Positions 24,374-43,211 of a stretch of DNA of 64,000 bases are shown one piece after another. The first letter of the stretch is position 1; every line of letters starts with the position of its first letter. Source of the stretch: Halalkaliarchaeum desulfuricum (lineage in GTDB: Archaea > Halobacteriota > Halobacteria > Halobacteriales > Haloferacaceae); assembly GCF_002952775.1 (NCBI RefSeq), contig NZ_CP025066.1, positions 1,426,001 through 1,490,000 on the forward strand, written 5' to 3'. The notes below the pieces were generated by a model. It had not been told where the DNA came from, ran no database searches, and saw only the letters and a list, made by a program, of their open reading frames with translations. The translations under genes were made by a program, and so were the position numbers.

Positions 24374-25639
24374 ATGTCGAATCAGGTCGTCACTCGGACG
24401 TTCAAAGCGAGTATCTGCAATCACTCGCAAGTCCGTGAGGACCTCGATTCGCATGGCTTTGCCGCATCGAAACTGTGGAACGTCGGGCGGTGGACGATCC
24501 AACGTGTCTGGGATGCCATCGGCCAGATTCCCAGTGCGGACGATCTCTGTTCGTATCTCAAACACCACGACCGCTACGGGGATTTGCACTCACAATCCAG
24601 TCAACGAGTTCTTCAGGAACTCGGTGAAGCGTTCGACTCGTGGTACGGGCAGGACGACCCGGATGCGAACCCCCCCGGCTACCGCAAACACGGCGACGAC
24701 CATCCACGCTCGACCGTGACGTGGAAAAACCACGGCTTCAAACTCGATACCGAGTACAACCGTGTTCGTCTCTCCAAAGGGACGAATATGAAAGCCTCGC
24801 GGTACGCCGCTGACTACATCCTGTGTGAATACAGGCTCCAGACGGACGACGGCGAGACGCTAGCTGCTGTCGACAGCGTTCAGACCGTCCGTGGTGTCTG
24901 GACTGGCGAGCAGTGGGAGTTGCACTTCGTCTGTAAAATACAGCGTGAGACCGCCGAGTCTCCCGGTGAGAAAACCGCAGGCGTCGACCTCGGGATCTGC
25001 AACACTGCGGCCGTCTCTGTCGGTGACGAGACGCTGTTGTATCCGGGGAACGCGCTGAAAGAAGACGCCCACTACTTCCGGCAGGAAGAATATGAAACAC
25101 AGGGCGAAACCGGGCCGAGCCACCACGCACAGTGGGCGCGAGAGAAGCAATCCCGACGGAAAGATCACTTTCTGCACGCGGTAGCGAAAGATATTGTCGA
25201 GCAGTGTGCAGACCGGGATGTCGGGACAATCGCAGTCGGGGATCCGAAAACCGTTCGTGAGGACCAAGACTGGGGACGCCACGGGAACAAGCGGTTGCAC
25301 GACTGGGCGTTTGAGACGCTTCTCAGCGACATTGAATACAAGGCTGAAGATCGTGGGATCGAGGTTGAACGGGTGGATGAAGCGGGACTGAAAACGTCGA
25401 AAACGTGCTGTGTGTGTGGGAGGGAAGCTGATTCGAACCGTGTGGAGCGTGGGCTGTACGTCTGTGATGAGTGTGGACTGGTGGCGAATAGTGATCTGAA
25501 CGGGGCGGAGAATATGCGAGCGACGGTAACTCCGAATCCTGAACAGGATAGGAGTAACGGCTGTTTGGCACAGCCATCGGTACGTCTGTTCGACAAATCA
25601 ACGGGGCAGGTCGCCCCACAAGAACAGGTCGTCTCGTAA
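24374..25639 (+). CDS. tnpB: TnpB, RNA-guided nuclease of IS200/IS605-type element
   Basis: A 421-residue TnpB, the ancestor type of Cas12 nucleases. The N-terminal REC/WED-like part runs to about 195. The RuvC I Asp is Asp205 (GVDLGICNT). The zinc finger uses Cys345 or Cys346 with Cys348, and Cys364/Cys367, and the RuvC III Asp is Asp374 (NSDLNGAEN). The expected RuvC II Glu is not seen at the usual place: the strand reads TIAVGDPKTVRED, with Gly289-Asp290 where active TnpBs have Glu-Asp. Several haloarchaeal relatives seem to share this GD form (from memory), so it may be a variant active site or an inactive nuclease. Codon use is less GC-biased than that of its neighbours, fitting a mobile gene. 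Confidence 0.9.
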   Translation: MSNQVVTRTFKASICNHSQVREDLDSHGFAASKLWNVGRWTIQRVWDAIGQIPSADDLCSYLKHHDRYGDLHSQSSQRVLQELGEAFDSWYGQDDPDANPPGYRKHGDDHPRSTVTWKNHGFKLDTEYNRVRLSKGTNMKASRYAADYILCEYRLQTDDGETLAAVDSVQTVRGVWTGEQWELHFVCKIQRETAESPGEKTAGVDLGICNTAAVSVGDETLLYPGNALKEDAHYFRQEEYETQGETGPSHHAQWAREKQSRRKDHFLHAVAKDIVEQCADRDVGTIAVGDPKTVREDQDWGRHGNKRLHDWAFETLLSDIEYKAEDRGIEVERVDEAGLKTSKTCCVCGREADSNRVERGLYVCDECGLVANSDLNGAENMRATVTPNPEQDRSNGCLAQPSVRLFDKSTGQVAPQEQVVS

Positions 25640-25710
25640 ACCCTAATATCCCAATCAAGCGGTGCGGAACCGTGGGAATCCTCGCGCTTCAGCGCGCGGA
25701 GGATGTCAAA
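25560..25710 (+). ncRNA. Possible omega-RNA at the tnpB 3' end
   Basis: TnpB guide RNAs usually overlap the end of tnpB and finish at the right end of the element, followed by the guide taken from flanking DNA. Here the tnpB tail is followed by a stem TCCTCGCGC / GCGCGGAGGA with a 6-nt loop (25679-25703), then TGTCAA. By this model the guide would start near 25707. The limits are inferred; no transcript boundary can be read from sequence. Confidence 0.35.
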
Positions 25711-38084: not shown

Positions 38085-38235
38085 GGCCGGGTGGCTTAGC
38101 TGGACATAGCGCCGCACTCATAGGGTTTCGAGATTCGGTGCGGTTCGCCTTGGAAGCCTCCGTGCGCCCCTGGGGCCTGCCGAGCCTCGTACCTGGGCCA
38201 TGCGGAGATCGCGGGTTCGGAGCCCGCCCCGGCCA
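38085..38235 (+). tRNA. Elongator tRNA-Met (CAT) with 77-nt intron
   Basis: Acceptor GGCCGGG (38085-38091) pairs perfectly with CCCGGCC (38228-38234), discriminator A at 38235. D-arm begins GCTTAGCTGGACATAGC. Anticodon stem CCGCA (38112-38116) / TGCGG (38201-38205); loop C-T-CAT-A gives anticodon CAT at 38119-38121. The T-arm is GCGGG-TTCGGAG-CCCGC (38211-38227). The intron occupies 38123-38199, between positions 37 and 38, the canonical archaeal site. Haloarchaeal elongator tRNA-Met is known to carry an intron of about this size, cut by the splicing endonuclease at a bulge-helix-bulge. CCA is not encoded. Confidence 0.96.
38123..38199 (+). other. tRNA-Met intron
   Basis: 77 nt between A37 (38122) and A38 (38200). 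Its ends can fold with the exon borders to a bulge-helix-bulge. The interior is GC-rich. Confidence 0.85.
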
Positions 38236-38297: not shown

Positions 38298-40130
38298 TCA
38301 CTGATGGAACGTGATCCTGACGATATTTCCGGTCGGGATATTCTCGTGGACCGTGATGGTCCCACCCGAACGGGTCGTGATCAATTTGACGAGCCACAGT
38401 CCAAGACCGCCCCCGTGATACACCGATGTTTGCCGCACGTTCTCTTCTAATATGTTCTGCTCCATCTCGGGGATCTGCGGTCCGGTATCGGCGATGTCGA
38501 TATGCGTGGTTCCGTCACTACGGATGACAGTGATCGCAACCTCAGGAGAGTCGGAGTCAGTATGAATGATCCCGTTCTCTAGGAGTTCGATGAGTGCTTC
38601 CTCGAACCGTGCCGCCGCACGTACAGTCACGTCTTCGCGGCACTCGACCGAAATTGTCGCTTCGGGATAGTCGGACTCGACCCTCGAAACGACATGCTGG
38701 AGAACGGATTTGAGGGAGAGTTCTTTTGCGACTGCGTCTTCCAGCAGTACTTCCGTTATCGCCCGTTCTTTGTCGGCTAACTCCAGCAGTCCGTAACTCA
38801 TCTCGACAATATCCACAGCTGACTGTGCAATCTCTCCCGAAGTTTCGGCGTGGATCCGTTCAGCAAACCCCTGAATCACGTTCATGTCGTTTCGGAGATT
38901 GTGACGCAACACCCGGCTGATAGTCTCTAAATGCTGGTCGCGTAGCCTCCGTTCTGTTACGTCCTGCTGGAACCCGACGAAGTTGATTACCTCCCCCTCG
39001 TCATTGCTGACGGGAGCGATTTCGAGGCGATTCCAGAACTCCGTGCCATCCTTCCGGTAGTTGCGAATTTCGATGGTAATCGGCTCCTCGTTGTCAATCG
39101 CCTCTCTAATCTGTGCCACCCGCGCGGAATCCGTATCTTCTCCCTGGAGGAACCGACAGTTCTCCCCGAGGATTTCCTCACGCGGATAGCCCGTGAGCTC
39201 CGCGAACGCGTCGTTCGCGTAGATCAGCGGGTTGTCCTCCTGGTCCGGATCGGAGATAGTAATTCCGACCGGGGCTTCCGCAATCGCTCGTGATTGCCGC
39301 TGGAGGCGCTGTTCCCGCTGTTTGCGGTCTGTGATGTCCTGGATCGTCCCGCGGACGCGGACGACCTCGCCGTCCTCGTGCTGTGGCTCGCCGCGCGTGC
39401 GCGCCCACCGCTGGTCGCCTTCGGCGGTGATCAGCCGGACCTCCACATCGTATGATTCGCCCTCTTCGACGGCTCCCCAGAACGCCTCTCGGATCGTGTC
39501 CCGGTCATCCGGGTGGTAGTACTCGATACTCTCTTCGGCGGTCAGCGTACGCTCCTCCGGGAGGTCATATATTTTGTACACTTCCTCCGTCCAGGAGTGC
39601 TCGTTTGTCCGGAGGTCGTACTCCCAGGCCCCCACGTGTGCGATCTCCTGCGCCTTCTCGAAGAGATCGACCTGTCGTTTGAGGTTGCGCTTGCGCCGGC
39701 GTAACGCGAGTGACTGCTCACGGAGCCGGAGCAACGCCGCCAGCCGCCAGTGTAGCTCGGCCTGCTGGATCGGCATGATGACGATTTCGTCAATCGATTC
39801 CGTCACCACGTTATCCGCAAGCTCACCGCCATCAATGTCGATAACCTCGGGAGCTGACTCTTCGAGCAACAGGAGATACGGGAGCATCACTGGGGCTGCA
39901 GCTGATTTCTTCGCGCGCAACGCAGGGAGATGTTCCTGAAACGCCGCCATGTCAAGGATGCACACGTCGAAAGCAGTGTCTTCAAGACGCCCTGTCAGGT
40001 CTACAGGCTCGTAGGAGGGGTGCTCCTCGATCCACTCGGTGACCAATCGTCGGTCCCCCGACTCGGACAACAGCGGGAGAACCCGGTCACGAGAGTCAAT
40101 CTCATTTGCAGTGTTCATGTGGTGTTCCAT
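38298..40130 (-). CDS. LOV-domain blue-light histidine kinase with receiver-like N-terminus
   Basis: A 610-residue soluble kinase. Residues about 1-145 are a receiver-like domain (FDVCILDMAAF keeps an Asp but the later Lys motif is missing). PAS 1 spans about 160-270. PAS 2 (about 280-395) has the full LOV signature: GENCRFLQG with photo-adduct Cys325, NYRKDGTEFWN with Asn357/Asn367, and GFQQDVT with Gln388. The phospho-acceptor is His410 (RVLRHNLRNDM); the ATPase has ELLENGIIH and GGGLGLWLVK. Blue-light sensing through FMN is therefore predicted. It lies 84 bp after the kinase at 40215-41336 on the same strand, downstream of a KaiC-like gene. An alternative start is M5. Confidence 0.88.
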   Translation of the reverse strand: MEHHMNTANEIDSRDRVLPLLSESGDRRLVTEWIEEHPSYEPVDLTGRLEDTAFDVCILDMAAFQEHLPALRAKKSAAAPVMLPYLLLLEESAPEVIDIDGGELADNVVTESIDEIVIMPIQQAELHWRLAALLRLREQSLALRRRKRNLKRQVDLFEKAQEIAHVGAWEYDLRTNEHSWTEEVYKIYDLPEERTLTAEESIEYYHPDDRDTIREAFWGAVEEGESYDVEVRLITAEGDQRWARTRGEPQHEDGEVVRVRGTIQDITDRKQREQRLQRQSRAIAEAPVGITISDPDQEDNPLIYANDAFAELTGYPREEILGENCRFLQGEDTDSARVAQIREAIDNEEPITIEIRNYRKDGTEFWNRLEIAPVSNDEGEVINFVGFQQDVTERRLRDQHLETISRVLRHNLRNDMNVIQGFAERIHAETSGEIAQSAVDIVEMSYGLLELADKERAITEVLLEDAVAKELSLKSVLQHVVSRVESDYPEATISVECREDVTVRAAARFEEALIELLENGIIHTDSDSPEVAITVIRSDGTTHIDIADTGPQIPEMEQNILEENVRQTSVYHGGGLGLWLVKLITTRSGGTITVHENIPTGNIVRITFHQ

Positions 40131-40214
40131 TAGTTACTGTCACCCCTTTCATCGAGAATGCAGATGTCGGAAGCAATCGGTAACAGATCGCCCTCTGAAA
40201 AGCCTCCGACATTC

Positions 40215-41336
40215 TTACCCATTGCCATCCCCCATGGTCGAATCGATAGTGGGCAGTTCCACGACGAACACAACTCCACGCGGATCGTTATCCTCGATCC
40301 AGACCGAGCCATCGTACATCTCGACCAAATTCGTCACCAAGTACAGCCCCATCCCAGTCCCGATACTTTCCAATCCCTTTACGTCGCTATCGAAGATTCG
40401 GTCCCGATGTTCCTCAGAAATCCCGGGCCCGTTATCCGCGATCCGGATGCGAACGTTGTCATCGTCTTCCTGGGTGGAAATCGAGACACTCGGTTCGTCC
40501 GCATCGTTGTGTTGGACGGCGTTGTTGATCAGATTCCGGAAGACGGACGACAGCATCTCGTTGGCGAGGACGGTGACGTCCGGGGGTGGTCCCTGTAGTG
40601 TTATCGTCGCCTTCTCGAACGTCTCCTTTCGGATTGCGATCACGTTTTCGAGGAGTCCCCCGAGTTCGACTGGTTCGAGCGAGGGGCCTTCTCCCTCGAA
40701 AATCGCCTCGACGATGTTCCTGGCGATGTCCGTGAGTTCGACAACGTGGTGTCCCGAGTTGAGCACTCTGTCGAGAATCTCTTTCCCTTCGCTGTCAACG
40801 TGGGGATCCAGGACCTCCAACCACCCCAAAACCACGCTCATATCGTTGCGGATGTCGTGTCGAAGTACCCGATTGAGAAGTTCGAGTTGCTCGTGTCCTT
40901 CATGCAGGCGAATCGCCTGGTTACGGGCTCTAAGCACAGATTTGAACCGCTGCTCCAGTTCGAGTGATGTAATCGGCATCCGGAGCAGTTCGTCGACCAG
41001 TGAATCCAAGGCATTGCTCTCCCTTTGAAGTGCGTTGACTACCTCATCTGCGCGTTGCTCCGGAACGAGCAACACAACCGGGAGCGGAATTCGATCCGCT
41101 TGTTTTCGGGTTCGAAGCGCGTCCTGGTTGTCGAGAAGTGACGCCCGATCCAGAATACAGCAATCGAACTCGCCGGTCCGAATATCCGTCTCCACTACGT
41201 CATATGAGTCGTGTGTGGCGAACCAACGTTCGAGTTGGCGGCGGTTTCCTTCGCTTTCGGTTCGAACAAGGACGCTGGCAACGCCACTCTCCACGTCCGG
41301 GAGGATATCCGCAGTCGGGGGAATTTCATTCGACAT
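40215..41336 (-). CDS. Histidine kinase with receiver-like N-terminus, coupled to KaiC-like gene
   Basis: A 373-residue kinase starting at MSNEIPPTAD (41336); the start lies inside the end of the KaiC-like gene (11-bp overlap), so translation is coupled. Residues about 20-140 are a receiver-like domain (FDCCILDRASLL, then DELLRMPITSLELEQRF) closely similar in layout to the N-terminus of the LOV kinase next to it. His160 (RVLRHDIRNDM) is the phospho-acceptor. ATPase motifs: NLINNAVQHND, DNGPGI and GTGMGLYLV. No PAS or membrane segment, so the input is likely protein contact, plausibly the KaiC-like protein. Confidence 0.87.
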   Translation of the reverse strand: MSNEIPPTADILPDVESGVASVLVRTESEGNRRQLERWFATHDSYDVVETDIRTGEFDCCILDRASLLDNQDALRTRKQADRIPLPVVLLVPEQRADEVVNALQRESNALDSLVDELLRMPITSLELEQRFKSVLRARNQAIRLHEGHEQLELLNRVLRHDIRNDMSVVLGWLEVLDPHVDSEGKEILDRVLNSGHHVVELTDIARNIVEAIFEGEGPSLEPVELGGLLENVIAIRKETFEKATITLQGPPPDVTVLANEMLSSVFRNLINNAVQHNDADEPSVSISTQEDDDNVRIRIADNGPGISEEHRDRIFDSDVKGLESIGTGMGLYLVTNLVEMYDGSVWIEDNDPRGVVFVVELPTIDSTMGDGNG

Positions 41337-42807
41337 CGCCGGACCGGGCGTCTCTGTGTGTTTTCTGCAATCTGGGTGTCCCGGTGAGAATTCCCTGCAT
41401 ATCCTCGAGAGGTTCGCCGACGCGGATCCCATACTCGGTGATTTCGAATTGCCTGAGACTCCGCTCGAAATCGCCCGTCCGCATCTTCAACACACCGATG
41501 ACCTTGCCGAGTTCGCTTTCGGTTTCCACGTATCGAAGGAACAGAACGTTGTCCGCGAGGTTGCTCACAGACTCTTCCGTGACACGGAACTCGCCGGTGA
41601 TGTTGGTGACTTCGTTCGTAATAATGGTCGAGACGCCTGCCGCTCGAAGATACCGCACGATCCGGAGTAGCACGTCCTCCGGATCCGTCGTGTACCCGCG
41701 AAGGTTCTGTTTGAACCCCTGGAGGCCGTCAATCAGAATGATACGTGCCCCCTCGTCTTCAACGGCGGTTTGGAGACGCGAGGTGAACTCGTTTGGCGTA
41801 TACTCGTTCGGAGCGATCTCCTCGATAGATAGCGTTCCCTGTTCGAGCATCGCTTCGATGGGAAGACTGATTGATCGGGAGCGCTTGCGGATCGTCCCTG
41901 GTGACTCCTCGAAGGAGTACATCACACTTTTTTCGCCGCGCCCGGCGGCCTCTTTGATGAACTGTAACGCGGTGGTGGTTTTGCCTGTCCCGGTGGGTCC
42001 ACTCACGAACGTAACGGTCCCGGGATCGAGTCCGCCCTTGAGGAGTTGGTCCAGTTCGGGGATCCCCGAGGAGAGTTTGTCGGATGTCTCCGCCGTGTTC
42101 TGAGGACTCCACGTCCCCGGCAGGAGTTTCGGGAAGACAGTTACCCCATCGTTCGTAATTTCGTAGGAGTGGATTCCACGCTGGAACGACGAACCACGGA
42201 ATTTCGAGACAAAGAGCGTCGACCCCTCGATATCGGTTTCCAGGTTGATAACCGTATCAGTGAGGAACTGGAGATCGTCGTCCGACAGCGAGTCGGAGGC
42301 CTGAGACGTGAATATCACCGTTGCGCCGTTGTCCCGGAGGAAATCCAGGAAGCTCAATATCTGTTTCCGGAACTGGCGTTCGTCGGTCGTCAGATAGCGG
42401 AATTCTGTAATGGGGTCGAGCAGCACTCGATCCGGTTGCAGCTCCTCGACGGAGCTACGGAGTTCCTCGATAAACGAGGGTTGTTCGACCTCCGCGGAGG
42501 TGAACACCGAATAGTTCTCGCCCTCGTCGAAGTCCTCGTGTGACGGGGAGAGATCGAGGAAATGGATCCCGTCCGGGTTGAGATCGAAGTGTTCGACAGT
42601 CTCTTTGACGTAATCGCCGGGCTCTCCGAGGTTGATGTACAGTGAGGTTTCCCCGTTGTCTACGCCGGCAGAGAGGAAATGCAAGCCAAAAATCGTCTTG
42701 CCCGCGCCCGGTGGGCCTCGAATCAGTGCGTTATGAGTTTTGCGCAACCCCCCGTCGAGGATGTCGTCTAACCCCGGCGGGCCAGTTGAGACTCTTTGAG
42801 AAGTCAT
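41326..42807 (-). CDS. kaiC: KaiC-like two-domain RecA-fold ATPase
   Basis: A 493-residue protein with two KaiC domains. Domain 1: Walker A GPPGAGKT (31-38). Domain 2: GPTGTGKT (270-277), with the catalytic Glu pair in SFEES (298-302). In the second domain, the segment FRVTEESVSNLADN aligns with the KaiC phosphosite loop: Ser415 matches S431, Thr410 matches T426, but Asn416 replaces T432. Domain 1 has LGEP in place of TFEE. Start: ATG at 42807 (MTSQRVSTG); a leaderless TATA (TTTATG, complement of 42833-42838) is 26-31 nt upstream. No kaiA or kaiB homologue is in the window. Operon with two histidine kinases downstream. Confidence 0.88.
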   Translation of the reverse strand: MTSQRVSTGPPGLDDILDGGLRKTHNALIRGPPGAGKTIFGLHFLSAGVDNGETSLYINLGEPGDYVKETVEHFDLNPDGIHFLDLSPSHEDFDEGENYSVFTSAEVEQPSFIEELRSSVEELQPDRVLLDPITEFRYLTTDERQFRKQILSFLDFLRDNGATVIFTSQASDSLSDDDLQFLTDTVINLETDIEGSTLFVSKFRGSSFQRGIHSYEITNDGVTVFPKLLPGTWSPQNTAETSDKLSSGIPELDQLLKGGLDPGTVTFVSGPTGTGKTTTALQFIKEAAGRGEKSVMYSFEESPGTIRKRSRSISLPIEAMLEQGTLSIEEIAPNEYTPNEFTSRLQTAVEDEGARIILIDGLQGFKQNLRGYTTDPEDVLLRIVRYLRAAGVSTIITNEVTNITGEFRVTEESVSNLADNVLFLRYVETESELGKVIGVLKMRTGDFERSLRQFEITEYGIRVGEPLEDMQGILTGTPRLQKTHRDARSGDVE

Positions 42808-43211
42808 TGTTTTGCATCTTAATAACGTTATGCATAAAGTATTTGTGATAGTTCGTAAAAGGGCCTCGTATTGGGGGGAGGGCTCGATTTTTCGACTTCC
42901 GGGACGTTTACGCCCCAGGAGATTGACCGTCTCGGTTTTGACTCTGGAACTGATCGAACTGCAGTTCTCCGCGGATCGGTTCGTCGAACGCGAACCGGCG
43001 CCGCCACACTCGCTGTCTCGCTGGGTACCGCCGACCCCGACTATCTCGATGCCGATCGGGGGCTTAAATACCTCCATATTCACCGTAGGAATTGTTAGTG
43101 CCCGGACCCGAATATCCGAACGCGACCGACAGACCCGCGGCCGACAGAACTGTGGTGACAAAAACGCGTCTCGACTCCAAAAAACGGGTTCGAAATCCGC
43201 GACACGGAACC
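42808..43211. other. 404-bp gap upstream of kaiC-like gene
   Basis: Contains the minus-strand kaiC promoter (complement of 42833-42838) and a plus-strand TATA-like GCTTAAATACC at 43063-43073 that may drive the small zinc protein at 43212 with a leader of about 115 nt. The open frames here overlap in several phases and show no family resemblance. Confidence 0.6.
42833..42838 (-). promoter_or_regulatory. TATA box of the kaiC-like gene
   Basis: TTTATG on the minus strand, 26-31 nt before the ATG at 42807, giving a leaderless transcript for the KaiC-kinase operon. Confidence 0.6.

Follow-up and report, generated by a model that had tools for sequence, protein, structure and literature searches.

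The cyanobacterial kinase CikA carries its domains in the order GAF, HisKA and HATPase, with a pseudo-receiver at the C-terminus. This pseudo-receiver binds KaiB (PMC12632262), while a second kinase, SasA, has an N-terminal KaiB-like domain of thioredoxin fold (PMC5520375). The output route of cyanobacteria is described as missing from archaea (PMC5520375), and archaeal KaiC-like ATPases have been proposed as signalling hubs (Makarova, Galperin and Koonin 2017, as relayed in PMC5847659 and PMC6393860), with members of the KaiC family linked to signalling domains that include the receiver (REC), as in iKaiC-REC and HalOD1-iKaiC (Makarova 2017, as relayed in PMC5847659). Bat-type regulators are described as REC-PAS-GAF-BAT-HTH_10 proteins (PMC5847659). 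In Haloferax volcanii, the gene for the two-domain KaiC CirC adjoins that of a PAS-type kinase named 'fixL', and cirC expression depends on light and dark (PMC3941300). The hub proposal, in the form in which citing papers report it, and the adjacency of cirC and 'fixL' with light-dark expression were already known. The locus described here compares with these systems most convincingly as a haloarchaeal KaiC signalling module in which a pseudo-receiver domain docks a sensor kinase or a transcription factor on KaiC, a reading to which we give a probability of about 60%.

Gene layout and kinase domains of the locus

Three genes lie on the minus strand of the window, the whole stretch of 64,000 nucleotides that was analysed: kaiC (42807..41326), encoding a two-domain KaiC-family ATPase of 493 aa; hk1 (41336..40215), encoding a histidine kinase of 373 aa composed of pseudo-receiver, HisKA and HATPase_c; and hk2 (40130..38298), encoding a kinase of 610 aa composed of pseudo-receiver, PAS, LOV, HisKA and HATPase_c. 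The start of hk1 overlaps kaiC by 11 bp and a gap of 84 bp separates hk1 from hk2. The first-pass annotation had described this same-strand arrangement, and its reading frames, coordinates, overlap and gap were all right on checking; gene order and spacing likewise support the operon-like unit that it proposed, whose members would be cotranscribed. A TATA-like box, TTTATG, at 42833..42838 (minus strand), 26-31 bp upstream of the kaiC ATG, is compatible with a leaderless kaiC promoter and makes one plausible. The gap between the kinases is spanned by a 32-codon open frame (40130..40228, minus strand) that ends at the hk2 ATG and contains DICILD, a motif class with three occurrences in the six frames of the window (HK1, HK2 and this frame). 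The frame may be the relic of a replaced kinase, and hence of a third pseudo-receiver gene, which is offered as a suggestion because its profile score of 5.7 bits is weak.

Pfam identifies HisKA (3.6e-8) and HATPase_c in HK1, and two PAS stretches, a weak HisKA (0.0076) and HATPase_c in HK2, so that both kinases have a phospho-acceptor His region (H motifs LRHDIRN and LRHNLRN) and an ATPase domain. The first PAS stretch of HK2 is a PAS_3 domain (39342..39596, minus strand). The second (38952..39272, minus strand) is a LOV domain, with matches to models of the YtvA family and of blue-light kinases and, in the PDB, to the solved LOV blue-light histidine kinase 6ph4 at 1e-42; it has the LOV core and the GxNCRFLQ Cys motif in the form GENCRFLQG (NCRFLQ at 39144-39161). 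These matches bear out the LOV kinase of the first-pass annotation, and HK2 probably senses blue light. Its NCRFLQ motif is one of two in the genome. Among 60 family genomes, a comparison of positions placed 21 of 97 NCRFLQ-type motifs just after a pseudo-receiver, and at the 90 haloarchaeal loci discussed below the LOV motif is present in 36 and absent from 54. A light response of the module is plausible. As the light-related part concerns HK2 and 40% of loci, light appears to be a possible input among others and does not define the module.

Two RNA features of the window were observed on its plus strand. An apparent intron-containing tRNA with a CAU anticodon, of elongator Met type, lies at 38085-38235, its 3' end ~60 bp from the hk2 stop; it was missed by ARAGORN. 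At 25524-25700 there is a strong Rfam match (114 bits) to the sense overlapping transcript sot0042 (RF02656).

The N-terminal receiver-fold domain

The N-termini of HK1 (40887..41291, minus strand) and HK2 (39681..40097, minus strand) are one and the same receiver-fold domain. Neither has a Pfam match, and no Pfam receiver match was found among 24 diverse homologues. A profile built from these 24 KaiC-linked sequences hit receivers almost exclusively among the PDB matches listed, with PleD on top (4e-11). The AlphaFold2 model of the HK1 domain (pLDDT 86, pTM 0.80) has five strands and a long C-terminal helix, and its top Foldseek matches are receivers throughout (TM 0.55-0.70); the HK2 model is weaker (pLDDT 72, with beta4-beta5 poorly modelled) and matches mostly receivers. 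The CikA pseudo-receiver occurs at ranks 21 and 27 for HK2 and was not found among the best 50 Foldseek matches of the HK1 domain. As the matches are to receivers generally, the fold is that of a receiver and not specifically that of CikA.

Across 107 KaiC-linked copies of the domain, 104 keep the beta3 Asp and not one has the beta5 Lys; few have the beta4 Thr/Ser, and the first acidic residue of the DD pair is lost, with a hydrophobic residue at that position almost throughout. The shared receiver-like N-terminus that keeps its Asp and lacks its Lys, first noticed in HK1 and HK2, is therefore common to these copies. Receiver fold combined with loss of the catalytic residues, apart from the beta3 Asp, agrees with the definition of a pseudo-receiver (PMC12632262). 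Assignment as an ordinary receiver was rejected, as the fold agrees and the catalytic residues do not, and loss of the beta5 Lys makes it unlikely that the domain acts as a canonical phospho-receiver. A profile search of the whole 3.3-Mb genome recovered exactly two copies, those of HK1 and HK2. The same genome has eight ordinary receivers; the window itself contains no PF00072 match, in agreement with the earlier statement that no response regulator is nearby.

The domain could nevertheless be a working receiver whose Asp is phosphorylated by its own or another kinase, with HK1 and HK2 acting as a phosphorelay and KaiC as a mere neighbour or downstream effector. The near-invariance of the beta3 Asp is what such a receiver would show, REC-PAS-HisKA architectures are known in archaea (PMC5847659), and in some loci the same place is occupied by a stand-alone ordinary receiver of ~126 aa with its Lys present, directly after KaiC (L109, L113, L116, L119 and L120). 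Against this stand the residue losses at the three other catalytic positions and the lack of a Pfam receiver match in all 24 members, and we regard a working receiver as unlikely.

KaiC residues, linkage and exchangeable outputs

KaiC contains two PF06745 stretches and two RecA-like domains with Walker A and B motifs, Walker A being intact in both; the catalytic pair is EE in CII and GE in CI. Residues were surveyed in 99 haloarchaeal KaiC aligned to S. elongatus KaiC, whose landmark residues took their expected positions in the sequence used as its reference. The equivalent of Ser431 does not vary (99/99), that of Thr426 is Thr or Ser in all 99, and both are kept here, as is CII Glu318-Glu319. 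The Thr432 equivalent is lost in all 99 (replaced by Tyr in 76, by Asn in 12, the present KaiC among them, and by His in 8), and CI Glu77 is Gly in 34 of the 99, again including this one. PDB alignments of KaiC agree with the survey. A PF07689 search found no KaiB in the genome, with a positive Synechococcus control, which extends to the genome the earlier remark that no kaiB is nearby. Judged from these residues, autophosphorylation on Ser would be possible and the two-site phosphorylation cycle of the cyanobacterial clock would not. Two features of cyanobacterial KaiABC, an encoded KaiB and the dual Ser431/Thr432 sites, are missing, and a cyanobacterial-type oscillator is not supported because the Thr432 equivalent is lost even though Ser431 is kept.

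These residues bear on whether the locus is a light-entrained diurnal or circadian timer, in which KaiC phosphorylation would oscillate, the LOV kinase would reset it and the kinases would read it out. The LOV kinase in the operon, the light-dark-dependent expression of a haloarchaeal two-domain KaiC beside a kinase gene (PMC3941300), the invariant Ser431 equivalent and the retained CII EE are all in keeping with a timer. The genome without KaiB, the universal loss of Thr432, the Gly at CI Glu77 and the majority of loci without LOV argue against it to the extent that a timer, and with it a clock function of the module, seems improbable.

Of 148 genomes in the family, 105 have a two-domain KaiC and 111 the pseudo-receiver domain; of 195 in the order, 99 and 101 do. 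In the family, 105 genomes have both, none has KaiC only, 6 have the domain only and 37 have neither; in the order the corresponding counts are 95, 4, 6 and 90. In both sets absences may be overcounted, as the KaiC searches scored the best few candidates per genome, and a Fisher test treats genomes as independent and so overstates significance. The one genome of the same genus that was compared has neither KaiC nor the domain. Of 134 copies of the domain, 110 have a two-domain KaiC no more than 5 kb away; conversely, the domain was found near 98 of 132 KaiC places. At 90 of 99 haloarchaeal loci fetched around KaiC there is a linked pseudo-receiver protein, encoded on the same strand in 74 (first gap <=0 bp in 39 and <=60 bp in 62) and divergently, ~3 kb upstream, in 16; 17 loci have two such proteins, as here. 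No third gene was comparably conserved among the neighbours, and no orc gene was found among the predicted neighbours at the one locus inspected for it (L177). The linkage at these loci and the co-occurrence in all 105 KaiC-positive family genomes strongly support a conserved neighbourhood across haloarchaea. They also remove the novelty that the first-pass annotation had seen in the combination: haloarchaea as a rule have a pseudo-receiver kinase with KaiC, and the adjacency of cirC and 'fixL' was published in 2014 (PMC3941300). The H. volcanii locus is likely this same module.

Beyond the order, three genomes from a single other family of the phylum carry the domain immediately behind KaiC-family genes or close to them, and two of these KaiC-family genes are without a P-loop. 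Among 13 exceptional haloarchaeal loci, three have a truncated or P-loop-poor KaiC beside the domain and ten have no detectable KaiC within 8 kb, so a pseudo-receiver kinase can stand alone. KaiC fragments, truncated or P-loop-poor, were seen beside intact pseudo-receiver genes at L165, L168 and L171.

The output is not always a kinase. Eight loci (L047, L051, L053, L068, L069, L075, L123 and L124) encode a full-length pseudo-receiver protein without a kinase core, and in all eight the pseudo-receiver is fused to GAF-BAT-HTH_10, some with PAS, giving Bat-type transcription factors; these loci make up exactly one KaiC clade (support 98). It is chiefly this constancy of KaiC and a receiver-fold partner, combined with a variable output, that points to the domain as the part in contact with KaiC. 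At four loci, REC-HalX-like response regulators lie ~2.2 kb upstream of KaiC (L072:3199-3816, L074:9825-10436, L095:3266-3844 and L118:3240-3986; HalX confirmed by Pfam in L072), a hint that REC-HalX proteins are candidate phosphotransfer partners.

The operon has a GC content of 55-58% (up to 61% within hk2) against 65-68% in its flanks. Its KaiC is 85% identical to the copy of Natrinema versiforme (Natrialbaceae), whereas the best other copy from its own family reaches 60%, and the KaiC tree mixes families. In that tree the window KaiC groups with L001, L036-L039 and L096-L099. The HK2 N-domain, by contrast, groups with the LOV kinases of another KaiC clade, so that kinases seem to have been swapped between modules. 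A tRNA-flanked integration island was considered and rejected: the window contains no further copy of the tRNA 3' end, direct repeats are limited to short imperfect matches and no att-like boundary was found, and a foreign origin accordingly rests on GC and the tree. A viral origin was also rejected, with no KaiC match in viral contigs. In Natrinema versiforme, a transposase-like reading frame separates kaiC from its kinase gene (L001:1917-2498). That the genes are a co-transferred cassette, travelling together across haloarchaea without working together, would suit the GC contrast, the tRNA gene at one edge and the KaiC relationships, but is very improbable when kinases are exchanged and the pseudo-receiver kept, starts overlap in about half of same-strand loci, presence and absence agree nearly one for one in hundreds of genomes, and no third cargo gene was found.

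Proposed docking on KaiC and comparison with known systems

In the preferred reading, a KaiC-docking pseudo-receiver, the two-domain KaiC would be expected to form a double ATPase ring, as is known for the family, and the pseudo-receiver would be the adaptor that physically ties the kinase to this ring. At this contact the ATP or Ser-phosphorylation state of KaiC would be integrated with the signals of the kinase sensors (PAS and, in HK2, LOV for blue light). The kinase would then hand on the outcome by phosphotransfer to a response regulator encoded outside the locus, probably one of REC-HalX type. In relatives, a Bat-type HTH_10 transcription factor would take the place of the kinase on the same pseudo-receiver. 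Docking is favoured by the placement of both domain copies of the genome in this operon, despite the eight ordinary receivers available. Several points weigh against it: common descent and joint transfer may account for part of the association and co-occurrence, the domain profile was made from KaiC-linked sequences, pseudo-receiver kinases without detectable KaiC nearby exist (10 of the 13 exceptional loci), and an almost invariant beta3 Asp is odd for a purely structural adaptor.

More tentatively, haloarchaea may have a KaiC route of their own, in which the dedicated pseudo-receiver docks kinases (often with LOV) or HTH_10 factors and Ser-only phosphorylation of KaiC is read, as an independent counterpart of SasA and CikA. 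No description of a KaiC-dedicated pseudo-receiver was found in the literature searched, within which Makarova 2017 is represented by the papers that cite it. The domain has no Pfam model, its copies in this genome are confined to the neighbourhood of KaiC, every sampled family genome that has two-domain KaiC has the domain too, and it is fused to kinases or transcription factors. On these grounds it is a concrete candidate for the partner of archaeal KaiC and for its missing link to the rest of the cell, and what archaeal KaiC talks to becomes directly testable in tractable haloarchaea.

In CikA and SasA, as in HK1 and HK2 on this reading, a small non-catalytic domain lets a histidine kinase connect a KaiC system with its output or input. 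The likeness to CikA drawn by the first-pass annotation stands insofar as these are pseudo-receiver kinases and fails in the N-terminal position of the domain, the absence of KaiB from the genome and a fold that resembles other receivers at least as well as CikA. The domain also keeps its Asp and no GAF was found, and membership of HK1 and HK2 in a CikA-like group was rejected on domain order and the absent KaiB. Unlike that of SasA, their N-terminal domain has a receiver fold and not the KaiB-like thioredoxin fold. HK2 resembles LOV histidine kinases in its LOV core with the photo-active Cys motif and differs in adding an N-terminal pseudo-receiver and linkage to KaiC. The cirC-'fixL' pair of H. 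volcanii shares the two-domain KaiC adjoining a kinase in a haloarchaeon, although that paper names no pseudo-receiver and no LOV and treats the adjacency as a curiosity (PMC3941300). Bat-type regulators also have a divergent N-terminal receiver, and one KaiC clade has a protein of this architecture in place of the kinase, whereas the output in this window is a kinase. Compared with the KaiC hubs of Makarova 2017, as these are relayed by later papers, the locus adds an operonic linkage to one specific pseudo-receiver, on which a kinase or an HTH_10 output is exchangeable.
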